Shown: in pieces, positions 5,510-11,442 of the stretch | How positions within the stretch are numbered: the stretch's first letter is position 1 | How the letters are laid out: every line of letters starts with the position of its first letter | Assembly: GCA_020724545.1 (NCBI GenBank) | Contig: DYGR01000004.1 | Coordinates: 1-53,207, forward strand | Length of the DNA stretch: 53,207 bases | Direction: 5' to 3' | Source of the DNA: Candidatus Methanoperedens nitratireducens | Lineage (GTDB): Archaea > Halobacteriota > Methanosarcinia > Methanosarcinales > Methanoperedenaceae | Position numbers and translations under genes: made by a program | The notes under the pieces: generated by a model | What the model was told of the DNA's origin: nothing | Seen by the model: the letters and a program-made list of their open reading frames with translations, nothing else | Databases searched by the model: none

Positions 5510-6340
5510 CTACAGCGTATCCAGCGGGCTCTTTATCTTCTTTATCTCCTCAGAGGAGACCTGTGTATATATCTGGGTGGTCTGCAGATTAGAATGTCCA
5601 AGAAGCTTCTGTATCTTTCTTATATCCACGCCATTTTCAAGCAGATGCGTGGCGAAAGAATGCCTCAGGGTATGCACATGCACGTCTTTCTCTATGCCTG
5701 CGCGCTCTGCTGAGATTTTTATAGCGTGCTGGATGCCGCGCGGCGACATTTTTCTACCGTTTACTGAGAATATATTTTCTTTTCCATTGCAGTTGTTCTT
5801 TTCTTTGTATTCCAGTAGGTCCTTTTTAAACATCTCCGAAATAATAAAAATCCTGTCCTTAGAACCCTTCCCCATCCGCACCCAGCCTATGCCTTCGTTT
5901 AGATCAAGATCTGAGTATTTTAGATTAATGCATTCAGAAAGTCGCAAGCCCGTAGAATAAAGAAGTTCAATAATGAGCTTATGTTTGATGTTTTCTGTTT
6001 TATCTAATAGGCTCTTTATCTCGTTACGAGTAAGGATAATAGGAAGTTTTTTTGATCTTCTTGGGGTTTTTATTTGTGATATATTTTTTCCAAGTATCTC
6101 AGTATAAAAGAACTTCAGAGCAGCTTTTATGAGTGCGATTGAAGCATTTGAGAGTGATTTATCTGAAAATTTATAAGCTAGAAAATCCTTTATGTCATCT
6201 TCAGTAATATCTTCTGGTTTCTTTTTTGTATAATCGAGCAATTTCTGATTGTAAAATAAATACATTTTTGCAGTATGGGGTGAGAAGCCTCTTAATTTTA
6301 TCTCGGTGGAAAGTTTTTTGAGATGCTCATTGATCATCAT
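5510..6340 (-). CDS. XerA-like tyrosine recombinase
   Basis: 276 residues with a SAM-like N-terminal core-binding domain (1-95) and a C-terminal catalytic domain carrying the full tyrosine-recombinase set: R133 (STGLRLSE), K158, H223 and R226 (HTLRH), H249 (LLGHSNLQTT) and nucleophile Y258. Length and architecture match archaeal XerA (chromosome dimer resolution) as well as integrases of small archaeal elements. Next to it lie two palindromic CCGTNACGG pairs, which are plausible binding sites. Whether this is the housekeeping Xer or an island integrase cannot be settled here; the mobile-looking surroundings favour the latter or a hotspot at the Xer locus. Confidence 0.9.
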   Translation of the reverse strand: MMINEHLKKLSTEIKLRGFSPHTAKMYLFYNQKLLDYTKKKPEDITEDDIKDFLAYKFSDKSLSNASIALIKAALKFFYTEILGKNISQIKTPRRSKKLPIILTRNEIKSLLDKTENIKHKLIIELLYSTGLRLSECINLKYSDLDLNEGIGWVRMGKGSKDRIFIISEMFKKDLLEYKEKNNCNGKENIFSVNGRKMSPRGIQHAIKISAERAGIEKDVHVHTLRHSFATHLLENGVDIRKIQKLLGHSNLQTTQIYTQVSSEEIKKIKSPLDTL

Positions 6341-6468: not shown

Positions 6469-6843
6469 TTAGTTTTGTTGGATTTGATTTTTATCCATTA
6501 GTTCTTTTAATATTTGTTTTCGAAATTCTCGATGATGAATCATAGCATGGTGATTGGGACATAGACCAACCATATTATTCTCAGAATTATTGTTGTGATT
6601 TTCATCGATATGGTGAAGTTCAACTATAAAATCAAAACCACATATGCAGCATTTTTCAGTTATTTTCTTGTATAAATCATATGGTATATTGTGAGAGGTT
6701 TCAGCATTATGTTTTTTAATTTGCTCAATTCGATTTACGGACATATAACATCCGCTACATAATCCATGTGCATGATGAAGCCTTCTTCTTCCACATCGAC
6801 TGCACGTTATGTAATTCTTTCTTATGTATTTTTTATTGTTCAT
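6469..6843 (-). CDS. HNH endonuclease-like protein with N-terminal zinc knuckle
   Basis: 124 residues. An N-terminal zinc-binding region (C14xxC17, C29xxC32) precedes an HNH core: C65xxC68, the ELHHID motif (H77, H78), NNNSENNMVGLCPNHH (C95, H98, H99) and a final HH at 103-104. HNH nucleases of this size occur in phages, group I introns, restriction systems and as stand-alone homing or defence nucleases. It lies 128 bp upstream of the recombinase gene on the same strand and has A/T-rich codon use like the rest of the island. Confidence 0.8.
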   Translation of the reverse strand: MNNKKYIRKNYITCSRCGRRRLHHAHGLCSGCYMSVNRIEQIKKHNAETSHNIPYDLYKKITEKCCICGFDFIVELHHIDENHNNNSENNMVGLCPNHHAMIHHREFRKQILKELMDKNQIQQN

Positions 6844-7057: not shown

Positions 7058-7198
7058 ATGAGCACAGACGGGTTCTATGGAGCAAAAAAGAATTTTGCAA
7101 AAAAACTTTTGGGAAAGGGTATAGATATCGTGAGCCGCCTCAGGATAGATGCTATATACGAACCACCAGCAGAATTCAAACACTTCGAACTCGCTTAG
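7058..7198 (+). pseudogene. Fragment of a DDE-type transposase
   Basis: A 46-codon open piece reading STDGFYGAKKNFAKKLL, then GIDIVSRLRIDAIYEP, ending in TAG. The 'D..F.GAK.F...L...G..IVSRLR.DA' pattern is typical of the middle of DDE insertion-sequence transposases of the IS4/IS701 type. The frame stays open upstream only to about 7028, and no further transposase sequence or terminal repeat is visible. It is therefore a relic, marking past transposition inside the island. Confidence 0.6.
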
Positions 7199-7301: not shown

Positions 7302-8366
7302 ATGAAAGTTAAGTATAATAAAAAGGAAGGAAAAATTGAAATTAAATTAAAAGAGGAGCCGATTTTATATTTCGATGAGTGCCAACAGTTTCGATTTTTA
7401 AGACCAATGAGAGTATATTATTCGGAAAAAGGGGAACCTGCCGAGATTATAATATACCAAGCAATAGATGAAAAAACATCAGAGAGAGAAGAAGAAATCG
7501 CAATACCAGATAGTTTGCCTTGGAGAAAATATATCTTTACTTATGGCGATAAAAGGTATCAAGGGTGCATAGATCGTTATACAGATATTTGGGATTCTGA
7601 TGATCGTTTTATTTGGTCAGGGTTTCTGACAATTCAGCGGAGAGATGGAAGGGAGATGGAAAAGAATGAAATTAAGGAAATTAGAGAAAATTTCTTCGAA
7701 GATATCTATGAATATCTGCCTCATCTTCTTGATGAGGACTCTGTAGTTAGCTTATATAAAAATAAGACACTCTATTTTTGGACCACTAAACCAAGAATGA
7801 GTTACCCATTCTCTAAAGAAGAATTTTTAGCATTTCTTCAAAATACTTTTGAATGGATATTGGATTACTCATTCGTAAAGCTGATAGAAAGAAACATAGG
7901 TTTTGATCTTATTTATCGTCGTGATTCAGAACTTGCATTGATTTGTCTTTGTGATGATGTCTTTTGGAAAAAATATGATACGAGGAGGGTTATAAAAAAA
8001 GAGGAATTGATCGATATATGCAAAAACACAAAAAAATATGAGAATAGAAGAATTATTTTGTTGAGTACGGAACTCTCAGAAACTGCTATTGATTATGCAA
8101 AAAGTCAGAATATTAAGGTTCAGAACATCAGCGACGTTATTAGAGAGAAGGATATGAAGGAATCAGAATTCAACGATGAAAATGCTGACAATATGGATCT
8201 TCAAAATATATTCGAAGACCATGAAGCCACTCCACCCGACAATAAAATGACAACCGATAATAATAGAAAGGAAAATCATAAAAAATCGATAGAGTATCAA
8301 GAACCAGCTGACGGTTCTTTTATAATAAAAGATTCCAGACCATTCGCACGACCAAAGAACCCGTAA
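7302..8366 (+). CDS. Unknown protein with degenerate Mrr/PD-(D/E)XK-like region
   Basis: 354 residues, no signal peptide or membrane segment, family not recognised. Residues 1-190 are strand-rich and aromatic (FRFLRPMRVYYSEKGEPAEI; FIWSGFLTIQRRDG). Residues about 195-283 follow the order of an Mrr-type restriction-endonuclease fold: GFDLIYRRDSELALICLC, a helix (IKKEELIDICKNTKKY), the strand RRIILLSTELSETAIDYAKS and IKVQNISDVI. However, the usual D...(Q/E)xK catalytic triplet is not intact (ALICLC where VQCK is expected), so it may bind rather than cut. Residues 284-354 are a polar, probably disordered tail. It precedes the 724-residue gene by 86 bp on the same strand, so the two are probably one operon. 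Codon use is A/T-rich. Confidence 0.75.
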   Translation: MKVKYNKKEGKIEIKLKEEPILYFDECQQFRFLRPMRVYYSEKGEPAEIIIYQAIDEKTSEREEEIAIPDSLPWRKYIFTYGDKRYQGCIDRYTDIWDSDDRFIWSGFLTIQRRDGREMEKNEIKEIRENFFEDIYEYLPHLLDEDSVVSLYKNKTLYFWTTKPRMSYPFSKEEFLAFLQNTFEWILDYSFVKLIERNIGFDLIYRRDSELALICLCDDVFWKKYDTRRVIKKEELIDICKNTKKYENRRIILLSTELSETAIDYAKSQNIKVQNISDVIREKDMKESEFNDENADNMDLQNIFEDHEATPPDNKMTTDNNRKENHKKSIEYQEPADGSFIIKDSRPFARPKNP

Positions 8367-8452
8367 ATAGTAATAAAAAAGCGAGCTTAAAACAATGTTC
8401 AAAGGATTGTAGTTGTTCTTTAACAAAGTTAAAAGAATGGAGGTGCTGTCTT

Positions 8453-10627
8453 ATGCAAAAAATAAAATTGAAGACGGAAGGAAAAATAAAGGGTAGCAGA
8501 GAAAAAGAAGAACAAAAAGCGGAGGAGCATAAGAAAGAGGAAGCAGAAAAGCCTATAGAAAGGATAAAAAATCCTGAAAACATAACTAAAGAGTCCTGTG
8601 AACCAAAGATCGAAGTAGCAGAAAAAAAGGAAGAAAGAATAGAAGAAATACTCAAAGAGATTGAATATAAAAAGAAAAGCGGAATTGATTCTCATTACTA
8701 TCCTGATAGACGATTTTATTCTGATTACGAAGCCCATCTTAATAAACTGGAAAAATTAGGGCATCCTCATGTGGAAGGTTTAAGAAAAGAGTTAATAGAG
8801 AAGGTGGAAAAGAACATAAAAAAGGATAAAGAGAAGTATTTGAAAGTGAGAGACCTAATCAGAAAGTATTGGAAGGAAAATAATTCAACGAAGCTCTATT
8901 GCTTGTGGATGTGGTTATGCCACCTAAAAAGCGATGATGTCATTAAGAACTTAAAAGTCAAGTTTGATAAAAAAGATGAAGAAGCGGAAAAGATTTATGA
9001 GGATTTTTTAACAGACTTGGATAACTGTGGAATCAAAGATACAGGCACATTTGTTTATACAGGCAGCGCTATTCATGTAAATGCATATGAGCTTACACTT
9101 GCTGATGAAGCGATAGAGAAGCTATTAAAAGAAGAGGGTGTTTTTGGCTCCTTTGTGAAAAATTGTGACGAGTATATCAAAGATTCATCAGAGTCTGTAA
9201 AAAAGGCTATTTATTTCCTTTCACAATGTGTAATTTTCTCTTACTTAAGAGGGTACGGTGGGTCCACTAAACTAAGATTTGAGGAAATACTCAAAAAGTT
9301 TTCTGGTTCTGAAGAAGATGTCGAGAAAGAATTGATTAGGTCAGGTATTATTCTTAAGAAGATAGATCGAGATTTAAATGTTCAAGCAGAAATTCCCTCC
9401 TATTCACTGTCTGTTTTTAAAAGAATAAAAGAGGATCCATATTCATTTGGAATAACGAAGGAAATCGAGGAAGAAGTCAAAGAAGAGATTAAAAGGAGAG
9501 AGACAAAAGAAGGAGAAAAACTTGTTGAACCTGCAGAAGATAAAAAACCAGAAGAATTAGAAATACCAAATTTCTTTGAACTTCTATTAGGAAAAGGATT
9601 TGGGGGAATTTCACATGAAAAACCTGTCTGTATTATTGTGGAGAAAACGAAGGAGAAACTTGAGGAACTTATAGCAGTGCTTTGTAGGGACATTTATAGA
9701 GAGAAAGTAGGAGGAAAACCAATACCCATATATCGTAACACAATAGAAGACTTAAGAAGAGATTGGAACTCCTTGGTAGAGCGCAAGATAATCATAATCA
9801 AAAATGCAGATGTAGAGAAAAGCAGGGAAGAGCTTTTTAAAATGATTAAAGGCTTTTTCTCTCAAGATATGGGTTTTTTGGTCTTGGTGACATCAGAACC
9901 TCTTAAGCTGGAAGATGAGATTAGAAATGAGGAGCCTTCAAAAAAAATAGTTACAGTTGAGGAGTTGCCGTCTGAAATTGAAAAGATAAAGGAAGAGATT
10001 TTAAGAACTATCCAAGGTAAGAAATCTGTTGCTCTGACTATGAGCTTCGATGCCACAGGTTCGATGAGTATAGAAGAGACACGAGGATTTGGCGATGAAT
10101 TTAAAACATCTGCGGAGAATTTTGATGATGAATTGATGAAATATCTTGATTATGAAAAAGCACCTTGGGAGTTAAAGCAAAATCGAGATAAATTGATGGC
10201 GTGCTCTCCTGCTGATTACGAGAAGAATGCGAGTAATGAGCATTCAGCTATGAAAGCCTTTGTCTGGCTATATGAATGGATGAGGCATGATAAAAGAAAA
10301 ATTCCGGATTTAGAAACTGATAATAAGGGGACGGATGTAAGAGTTGACAGTAATAATTATGAAATAGAGACTCTCTTCGGTATTGGTGATGTAGCGAGCA
10401 AATTAACAGAAAAAATGAAGAAATATAACAAAAATGAGAAAGTTTATTTTGTGTTGCGAAATTTGGATATTCTGAGACATTTATCCAAACTTTCGACTTT
10501 CAGAACAAATTGGAGAAAAGCAGGGTACGAAGTTGAGTTCTTTGGCTTGGATCTGGATAAAGAAGAACTTGTTCCCGTAGATGAGTTTGTGAAACTCGAA
10601 GAAAGAGTACTCAAGACGCTCTGCTAA
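8453..10627 (+). CDS. Large unknown protein: charged N-term, degenerate ATPase-like middle, putative nuclease C-term
   Basis: 724 residues starting behind a strong GGAGGTG site. Residues 1-130 are highly charged and coiled (KEEQKAEEHKKEE). About 250-335 looks like winged-helix or helical DNA-binding sequence. About 370-515 alternates strand and helix like a P-loop domain, with a Walker-B-like strand (ERKIIIIKNADVEKSREE) and FLVLVTSEP, but the first strand (VCIIVEKTKEK) lacks a Walker A. The C-terminal part (about 590-710) has NEHSAMKAFVWLYEW (E596), KGTDVRV (D628) and YEIETLFGIGD (E637, E639), followed by KVYFVLRNLDIL. This resembles a PD-(D/E)XK-like nuclease with an archaeal E(V/I)ET variant in place of ExK. 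I cannot name the family; the nuclease role is inference. Confidence 0.75.
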   Translation: MQKIKLKTEGKIKGSREKEEQKAEEHKKEEAEKPIERIKNPENITKESCEPKIEVAEKKEERIEEILKEIEYKKKSGIDSHYYPDRRFYSDYEAHLNKLEKLGHPHVEGLRKELIEKVEKNIKKDKEKYLKVRDLIRKYWKENNSTKLYCLWMWLCHLKSDDVIKNLKVKFDKKDEEAEKIYEDFLTDLDNCGIKDTGTFVYTGSAIHVNAYELTLADEAIEKLLKEEGVFGSFVKNCDEYIKDSSESVKKAIYFLSQCVIFSYLRGYGGSTKLRFEEILKKFSGSEEDVEKELIRSGIILKKIDRDLNVQAEIPSYSLSVFKRIKEDPYSFGITKEIEEEVKEEIKRRETKEGEKLVEPAEDKKPEELEIPNFFELLLGKGFGGISHEKPVCIIVEKTKEKLEELIAVLCRDIYREKVGGKPIPIYRNTIEDLRRDWNSLVERKIIIIKNADVEKSREELFKMIKGFFSQDMGFLVLVTSEPLKLEDEIRNEEPSKKIVTVEELPSEIEKIKEEILRTIQGKKSVALTMSFDATGSMSIEETRGFGDEFKTSAENFDDELMKYLDYEKAPWELKQNRDKLMACSPADYEKNASNEHSAMKAFVWLYEWMRHDKRKIPDLETDNKGTDVRVDSNNYEIETLFGIGDVASKLTEKMKKYNKNEKVYFVLRNLDILRHLSKLSTFRTNWRKAGYEVEFFGLDLDKEELVPVDEFVKLEERVLKTLC

Positions 10628-10953: not shown

Positions 10954-11442
10954 ATGACAACACGTTCGATTGATATTGCACTCACGCAGGCCGAGGCTGA
11001 CGACGGCATAGAGGCGGTTTATGATAATATGTGTACATTATCAACAGAACCTGAGCTATGTTTTAATTATGCGACAACGGCTGATCTGAGGAAATGGGGG
11101 TTCTCCGAAGGATGTTTTAGCTGTTTTTTGCAGGATAAAAGAGATGTAATAATACAGGCAATTACAATATACGAGAATAGAGAAGGTGCAAATCGTGCAT
11201 ACCATGCGGATATAGATTATCTAAAAAAGAACAATTATGGAAGGCCAATGGAAGCAAAAAAATTAGGCGAATCATCTATTCTATTTAAGAAAAAACAGAG
11301 TGATGGGGTTACCTATAATCTGCTATTTTTAAAATACACCGTTTTTGCTACAATTAGCGCCAAATACAAAAAAGATAGACCCGACAATGTACATCATATT
11401 ATTGGACTTGCTGAAAAAATAGAGAAGAAGATCACAAGATAG
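10954..11442 (+). CDS. Hypothetical soluble protein
   Basis: 162 residues, no signal peptide or membrane segment. Distinctive stretches are CFNYATTADLRKWGFSEGC and a FSCFLQDKRD segment with paired cysteines, then a strand-rich second half (ESSILFKKKQSDG; NLLFLKYTVFATISAKYKK) ending in an amphipathic helix. I do not recognise the family. It stands alone just right of the island border, with promoter-like A/T-rich sequence upstream and no partner gene. Confidence 0.6.
   Translation: MTTRSIDIALTQAEADDGIEAVYDNMCTLSTEPELCFNYATTADLRKWGFSEGCFSCFLQDKRDVIIQAITIYENREGANRAYHADIDYLKKNNYGRPMEAKKLGESSILFKKKQSDGVTYNLLFLKYTVFATISAKYKKDRPDNVHHIIGLAEKIEKKITR

Follow-up and report, generated by a model that had tools for sequence, protein, structure and literature searches.

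Within a stretch of 53,207 nucleotides from Candidatus Methanoperedens nitratireducens (contig DYGR01000004.1 of assembly GCA_020724545.1, positions 1 to 53,207 of the forward strand; hereafter the window), two open reading frames (ORFs) follow one another on the same strand, and we refer to them as genes A and B. An earlier note, made from the sequence alone, had read them as a two-gene unit of unknown family with nuclease-like and degenerate ATPase-like domains. The ORF list bears out the layout given there, with proteins of 354 and 724 residues, both on the plus strand, and a spacing of 86 bp (8366 to 8453). Directly 5' of B, aatGGAGGTGctgtcttATG resembles a ribosome-binding site by eye. 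The features of the locus are collected in Table 1.

Table 1. Features of the A and B locus in window coordinates.
Feature	Position	Strand	Description
XerA-type tyrosine recombinase	5510..6340	-	NF040815, 269 bits, cut-off 220; same AT-rich stretch as A and B
Gene A	7302..8366	+	354 aa; N-terminal domain with no assigned fold, C-terminal degenerate Mrr-like region (~residues 171-273; weak likeness), charged tail
Gene B	8453..10627	+	724 aa; belongs to an archaeal family not described before
Window-only sequence in B	8996..9364	+	Residues ~182-304; holds most of the 112-118 residues filled by the window protein alone
Short motif of IPxLxLxxF type, single copy	9392..9427	+	IPSYSLSVFKRI; B residues 314-325
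Alpha/beta domain	9566..9952	+	B residues ~372-500; P-loop-NTPase-like strands, no Walker A; fold predicted from alignments
C-terminal nuclease-like domain	10190..10624	+	Putative; from an alignment of 20 members

The description of both genes as members of unknown families holds: in Pfam and NCBIfam no match of A or B exceeds the curated cut-off, PADLOC returns nothing at E 5 or below, and E 0.0072 is the lowest value for any PHROG. The Pfam and NCBIfam searches likewise place neither protein in a housekeeping family. Weak matches to Ras_bdg_2 (E 0.011), TASOR_alpha-beta (0.048), VMAP-M1 (0.063), SlrR (0.039) and REase_II (0.012) were taken as chance.

With 724 uninterrupted codons and conservation in other genomes, B is clearly more than a chance reading frame. 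The spread of its family is patchy. At the level of the order, B occurs in 1 of 185 genomes, which is the window's own. In the phylum sample, 16 of 392 genomes gave a match at E <= 0.01; two of these (loci L036 in genome G408 and L035 in G434) were judged spurious, as one overlaps another gene and the other covers residues 97-158 only, with a stop. One further genome (G513, locus L111, with several stops) was left out of the B counts. A haloarchaeal sample yielded matches in 7 of 194 genomes (E <= 0.001), and GTDB contigs, scanned with an alignment of six members, yielded 14 loci, including a Thaumarchaeota metagenome-assembled genome (MAG), a Lokiarchaeota MAG and haloarchaea. Together, the records span three archaeal phyla.

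Alignments of these members reveal a common order in B, with an N-terminal arm that varies and is of low complexity, then an alpha/beta domain, then a C-terminal nuclease-like domain. The part preceding the core counts 370 residues in the window protein, compared with 179-333 in 16 other members. Residues filled by the window protein alone amount to 96 at positions 182-277 in a 10-row alignment, and lie at 182-186, 210-235 and 245-304 in a 15-row alignment. The IPxLxLxxF-type motif occurs four times in L023, twice in L041 and once in window B; under that pattern it is not a general feature of the family, since all matches (7 in 17 members, 1.0 expected from shuffling) are confined to three members. 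The middle of B comprises hydrophobic strands with conserved R416, G420 and P423 and no Walker A, in line with the Walker-A-less ATPase-like middle described earlier, and the domain preceding the C-terminus does look like an ATPase that has no Walker A. A Walker-less alpha/beta domain tied to an effector is also a trait of the inactive STAND modules of the BrxB/BrxF type, as portrayed in PMC12839542. A BrxB identity for the middle was rejected, as hhalign against two near-identical BrxB sequences gave P 0.096, which leaves homology unsupported.

In the relatives, the place upstream of B is taken not by A but by a member of one of two other families, A1 (~300-480 aa) or A2 (~180-290 aa). Because A1 and A2 are homologous over ~120 columns (hhalign probability 96.5, E 7.6e-10), we treat them as one partner family, P. 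After removal of duplicates, including the merging of ten loci that repeat another record, 28 B loci remain, and by a scripted count P lies upstream on the strand of B in 22. The gap between P and B ranges from -35 to +20 bp in 18 of these 22, the others measuring 85 (L096), 183 (L025), 309 (L021) and 788 bp (L042). Variants of the arrangement include A1-A2-B tandems in L094 and L095, and in L096 a P gene followed by the C-terminal domain only, as a 206-aa gene. B is part of a conserved P-B unit, and the window is an exception lacking P. The other five loci in which P was not counted are L024, where a contig end cuts B, the broken copies L030 (in which a short P piece with a stop was nevertheless found) and L034, a fusion protein in L114 and the distant relative in L115. 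We also note that P of Haloarcula argentinensis (L028 9449-10128) is split into two overlapping frames; P of genome G596 (L112 10473-11153) is intact, and the accompanying B is very close to that of L028.

Members of the three families gave no match above cut-off in the libraries tried, although not every member was run against every library. Pfam gave no match under E 0.02 for 15 B members, and PADLOC-DB 2.0.0 gave no credible match for seven B proteins, six P ORFs (from four loci) and three A-family proteins; its single match, of one P to a type II restriction endonuclease (REase) model at E 0.012, was taken as chance.

P is absent from the window's genome by both the A1 and the A2 profile, and from the window locus itself, and no remnant of it turned up in the non-coding stretches that were searched near A, B and the recombinase. 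In a tree of B (21 rows, one of them very long, with a midpoint root for drawing only), the window protein groups with three A1-partnered Bs (100/100), with L021 as sister (97/97). As the window B thus nests with A1-partnered Bs, loss of P in the window lineage is the simplest reading. The window-only residues of B bear no similarity to P. Neither the N-terminal part of B nor A appears to be a disguised P; these candidates were rejected after hhalign gave P 0.095 or worse and the best hmmsearch --max result, with a three-sequence test set, was a non-significant E 0.017.

The earlier proposal that A and B form a two-gene unit fails because their homologues are not neighbours in the other genomes looked at. 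A-family matches were found by profile search in 8 other genomes of the 392 (E <= 0.01), some weak or partial, and these eight do not overlap with the 16 genomes of the same sample that are B-positive. B is present in 0 of 6 tabulated A-family loci (G470 and a second site in G401 were left out of the table), and A in 0 of the 27 other B loci. A pairing of active and inactive nucleases, as that note envisaged, would be special to the window's genome.

The Mrr-like region of A that the note had described, one with no intact catalytic site, is weakly supported. Aligned by hhalign with the profile of Mrr_cat (PF04471), a type IV restriction endonuclease domain, residues 171-273 in the C-terminal third of A give P 0.0013 over 93 columns with a probability of only 18%; the same Mrr alignment against the B and P profiles gives P 0.23-0.64. 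The A relative in L056 matches Mrr_cat at E = 8.7e-4 and 20.3 bits, just below the cut-off of 21, whereas window A has no Mrr match in Pfam up to E 5. The D...(Q/E)xK motif is missing from A when read off the hhalign alignment, with C standing at both the Q/E and the K position and F at the D position, directly followed by a D. The region reads as weakly Mrr-like and degenerate. Separately, the A-family gene of L056 adjoins genes for a DUF499 ATPase, a DUF1156 methylase (HmaB-like matches) and an HmaA-like helicase, which are of kinds similar to those of the BREX-related systems (a name taken from PMC12839542). At L056 9765-19901, the DUF499 and DUF1156-methylase genes are split over several reading frames, and an SNF2-type helicase is also present.

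The C-terminal domain of B was compared over 20 aligned members, 19 of which are 23-60% identical to the window protein. Six residues, H597, K601, E621, D628, E637 and E639, are invariant in 20/20 members, and S594 and T640 are nearly so. The block E596, D628 and EIET (637-640) singled out in the note is present in the protein; E596 proves not to be conserved, and the alignment corrects the set to the residues above. D628 is preceded by P in several members (RPDV, VPDI), and the distant L115 protein shows the same residue pattern by eye. A helix carrying H-x3-K comes first, and E, (P)D and E-x-E-T follow on what would be strands, an order that we take to resemble PD-(D/E)XK nucleases with a displaced lysine. 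The nearest likeness would presumably be to CoiA-type and BamHI-type enzymes of this superfamily, in which an H-x3-K helix accompanies a D...ExQ or D...ExE site; B differs in that it has no profile match and only the motif order is alike. The C-terminus of B probably has a PD-(D/E)XK-like nuclease fold, in agreement with the nuclease-like character assigned to it before.

The surroundings of the relatives point to larger systems in part of the family. In Haloarcula argentinensis (L028), P-B lies between BrxC and PglX-PglZ, all three identified by model, that is, within a bacteriophage exclusion (BREX) locus. In Halorubrum persicum (L044), P-B follows BrxB and BrxC (by model) and precedes an ORF whose start resembles the PglX of L028, and in G596 (L112) ORF likeness to L028 points to the same arrangement. 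These three BREX loci may be of type 5. P-B thereby occupies the position between BrxC and PglX of a haloarchaeal BrxB-BrxC-PglX-PglZ system, although B and P match no BREX model. The Bs of the three loci form one clade (100/99), next to the Bs of Natrialba and G518, which by eye have no BREX gene nearby; the module therefore probably entered BREX once. Between BrxC and P, L112 (11239-12968) and L028 (10214-11955), but not L044, also carry a gene of winged-helix type and one for a DUF6036 nucleotidyltransferase, the latter identified by model in L112 and by likeness in L028.

Outside BREX, a SIR2-domain gene lies directly behind B in L095, a PDC-S37/DUF4011 helicase-nuclease ~2 kb from B in L043, together with an ADP-ribosylglycohydrolase, and HSDR and OLD-like genes 5-7 kb off in L041. 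An adjacent PLD-family gene with a ZacB-like match is found in L114, and an adjacent IetA/TRIP13-like AAA gene in L115. A DNA-methylase piece lies near B in L038 and a ParE-type toxin gene in L023. At L095 483-5486, A1-A2-B is followed at once by the SIR2 gene, possibly as a four-gene defence operon. The defence setting suggested earlier is thus borne out for some B relatives (BREX, SIR2 and others) and not for the window locus, where no BrxC, PglX, PglZ or other BREX gene was found by Pfam or NCBIfam among ten genes scanned between 1.2 and 14.9 kb, three of these also by PADLOC.

The reading we favour, to which we give an even chance, is that B acts as the effector in an accessory P-B module of archaea, in which P comes in one or two homologous forms, and that the copy in the window has been rewired. 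Ordinarily, P would bind the low-complexity N-terminal arm of B and hold or direct B, and the Walker-A-less alpha/beta domain would act as a sensor or switch. Once foreign DNA or a defence signal is recognised, nucleic acid would be cut by the C-terminal PD-(D/E)XK-like domain. P-B could operate free-standing or docked in a larger system, either between BrxC and PglX in haloarchaeal BREX or beside SIR2. In the window, the effector core would have been kept while P is gone, B has additional sequence in its N-terminal part and follows A; binding of DNA or nucleotides may come from the dead Mrr-like region of A. The extra N-terminal sequence, and possibly A, would have taken over the part of P; what speaks for A is just its position, its orientation and its open frame.

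More tentatively, P-B may constitute an undescribed archaeal anti-invader system, a nuclease effector with its own partner that can work by itself or join BREX as a second effector and whose sensing part is swappable, the window representing a swap to a dead Mrr-like protein plus N-terminal sequence. Nuclease-based multigene defence modules are a known kind; the B/P family and the way it docks in BREX appear to be new. Among the matches listed in our literature search, no title or abstract opening evidently describes the B/P family, and the main text of PMC12839542 does not use the words haloarchaea, Haloarcula, Halorubrum or SIR2. If this is true, an archaeal effector module would be added to a field dominated by bacterial systems, haloarchaeal BREX would gain an embedded component covered by no model searched here, and the window would offer a natural case of sensor exchange on a single effector core. 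The three-gene form in L095 and the BREX form provide concrete loci, the latter in culturable haloarchaea.

A number of observations weigh against the favoured reading, and we set them out with the alternatives on which they bear. With respect to the C-terminus of B, the nuclease assignment rests on motif order, which neither a profile nor a structure confirms. The canonical lysine position is occupied by glutamate, giving E-x-E-T rather than E-x-K. A profile search of the PDB with the C-terminal alignment returned 0 matches at E <= 10, and with the whole B alignment a best E of 0.27, which is chance level. Specific identities as Mrr or CoiA were rejected, with hhalign P 0.23 against the Mrr alignment and no match to CoiA_nuc anywhere in the window's own genome, B included. 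The glutamate would fit an alternative in which the C-terminus is catalytically dead and P-B is a regulator, or a nucleotide or DNA sensor, for other defence machinery such as BREX. The C-terminus of the P forms could be a winged helix, and, according to PMC12839542, inactive REase domains paired with nucleoside triphosphatases often act as sensors. Nevertheless, the invariance of six residues over 20 members and three archaeal phyla suggests catalysis, and L096 retains P with the C-terminal domain alone; we think a dead domain very improbable.

On the side of A, the likeness to Mrr is weak, and an interaction with B is conjectural. As for a role in defence, a named defence-type neighbour is present in 8/28 B loci, a count that covers chosen neighbours and has no background rate, and many B loci lie, by eye, beside ordinary-looking genes. 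Relatives of B are missing from the viral contigs searched (three scans with few peptide patterns each) and from phages; on plasmids, one scan gave a single distant relative and the others none. One scan of viral contigs for A, likewise with few peptide patterns, returned no relative. The plasmid relative is the 1403-aa fusion of Halorussus pelagicus (L114 2463-11289, NZ_CP035121.1), in which the B core is placed after ~950 residues that have no Pfam match.

Finally, B is broken or fragmented in several loci (L025, L030, L033, L034), which also lends weight to a view of the window copy as a decaying orphan, with P lost in an AT-rich, integrase-bearing stretch and A an unrelated gene sharing no function with B. 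The genome-wide absence of P by profile, the lack of a P remnant in the searched non-coding stretches and the fact that A was not found beside B in the other loci fit this view as well. Against it, B stays open across 724 codons, keeps all invariant residues and has a ribosome-binding-site-like sequence in front; A for its part has an uninterrupted frame of 354 codons, runs in the same direction as B and ends 86 bp ahead of it. We regard decay as a serious rival to the rewired module, if on the whole an unlikely one.

The composition of the locus bears on another alternative. Over ~5.5-11.5 kb, the guanine-plus-cytosine (GC) content is 29-36%, and this one stretch takes in the recombinase, A, B and a gene that weakly matches HNH_2. 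The left flank has 36-47% and the right flank 40-52%, so the contrast is sharp on the right side only. A and B might be carried as cargo by, or help to maintain, an integrated element with the XerA-type enzyme as its integrase, B aiding replication, segregation or recombination of the element. The plasmid location of L114 agrees with this, as does L113, where an integrase identified by model and genes that by eye resemble transposases lie nearby. Against it, no convincing attachment-site repeats were found around the AT-rich stretch, only short ones, and three B relatives reside inside BREX loci. Moreover, XerA-type enzymes also have a chromosomal role, and the recombinases near relatives were noted in passing rather than by a systematic neighbour scan. 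We consider an integrated element improbable, and retain the accessory P-B module with a rewired window copy as the preferred account.

Scans of the window for other signals gave tRNA only (Rfam), and chance-level results for sigma-70 promoters and terminators, with models ill-suited to archaea. Among the neighbouring genes, the 162-aa gene at 10954-11442 (+) has no match in Pfam, NCBIfam or PADLOC and a best PHROG match of E 0.08. The CxxC-bearing gene at 6469-6843 (-) is the one with the weak HNH_2 match (Pfam, E 0.035). Just upstream of A, a short open stretch at 7058-7198 (STDGFYGAKKNFAKKLLGKGIDIVSRLRIDAIYEPPAEFK) may represent part of a transposase.

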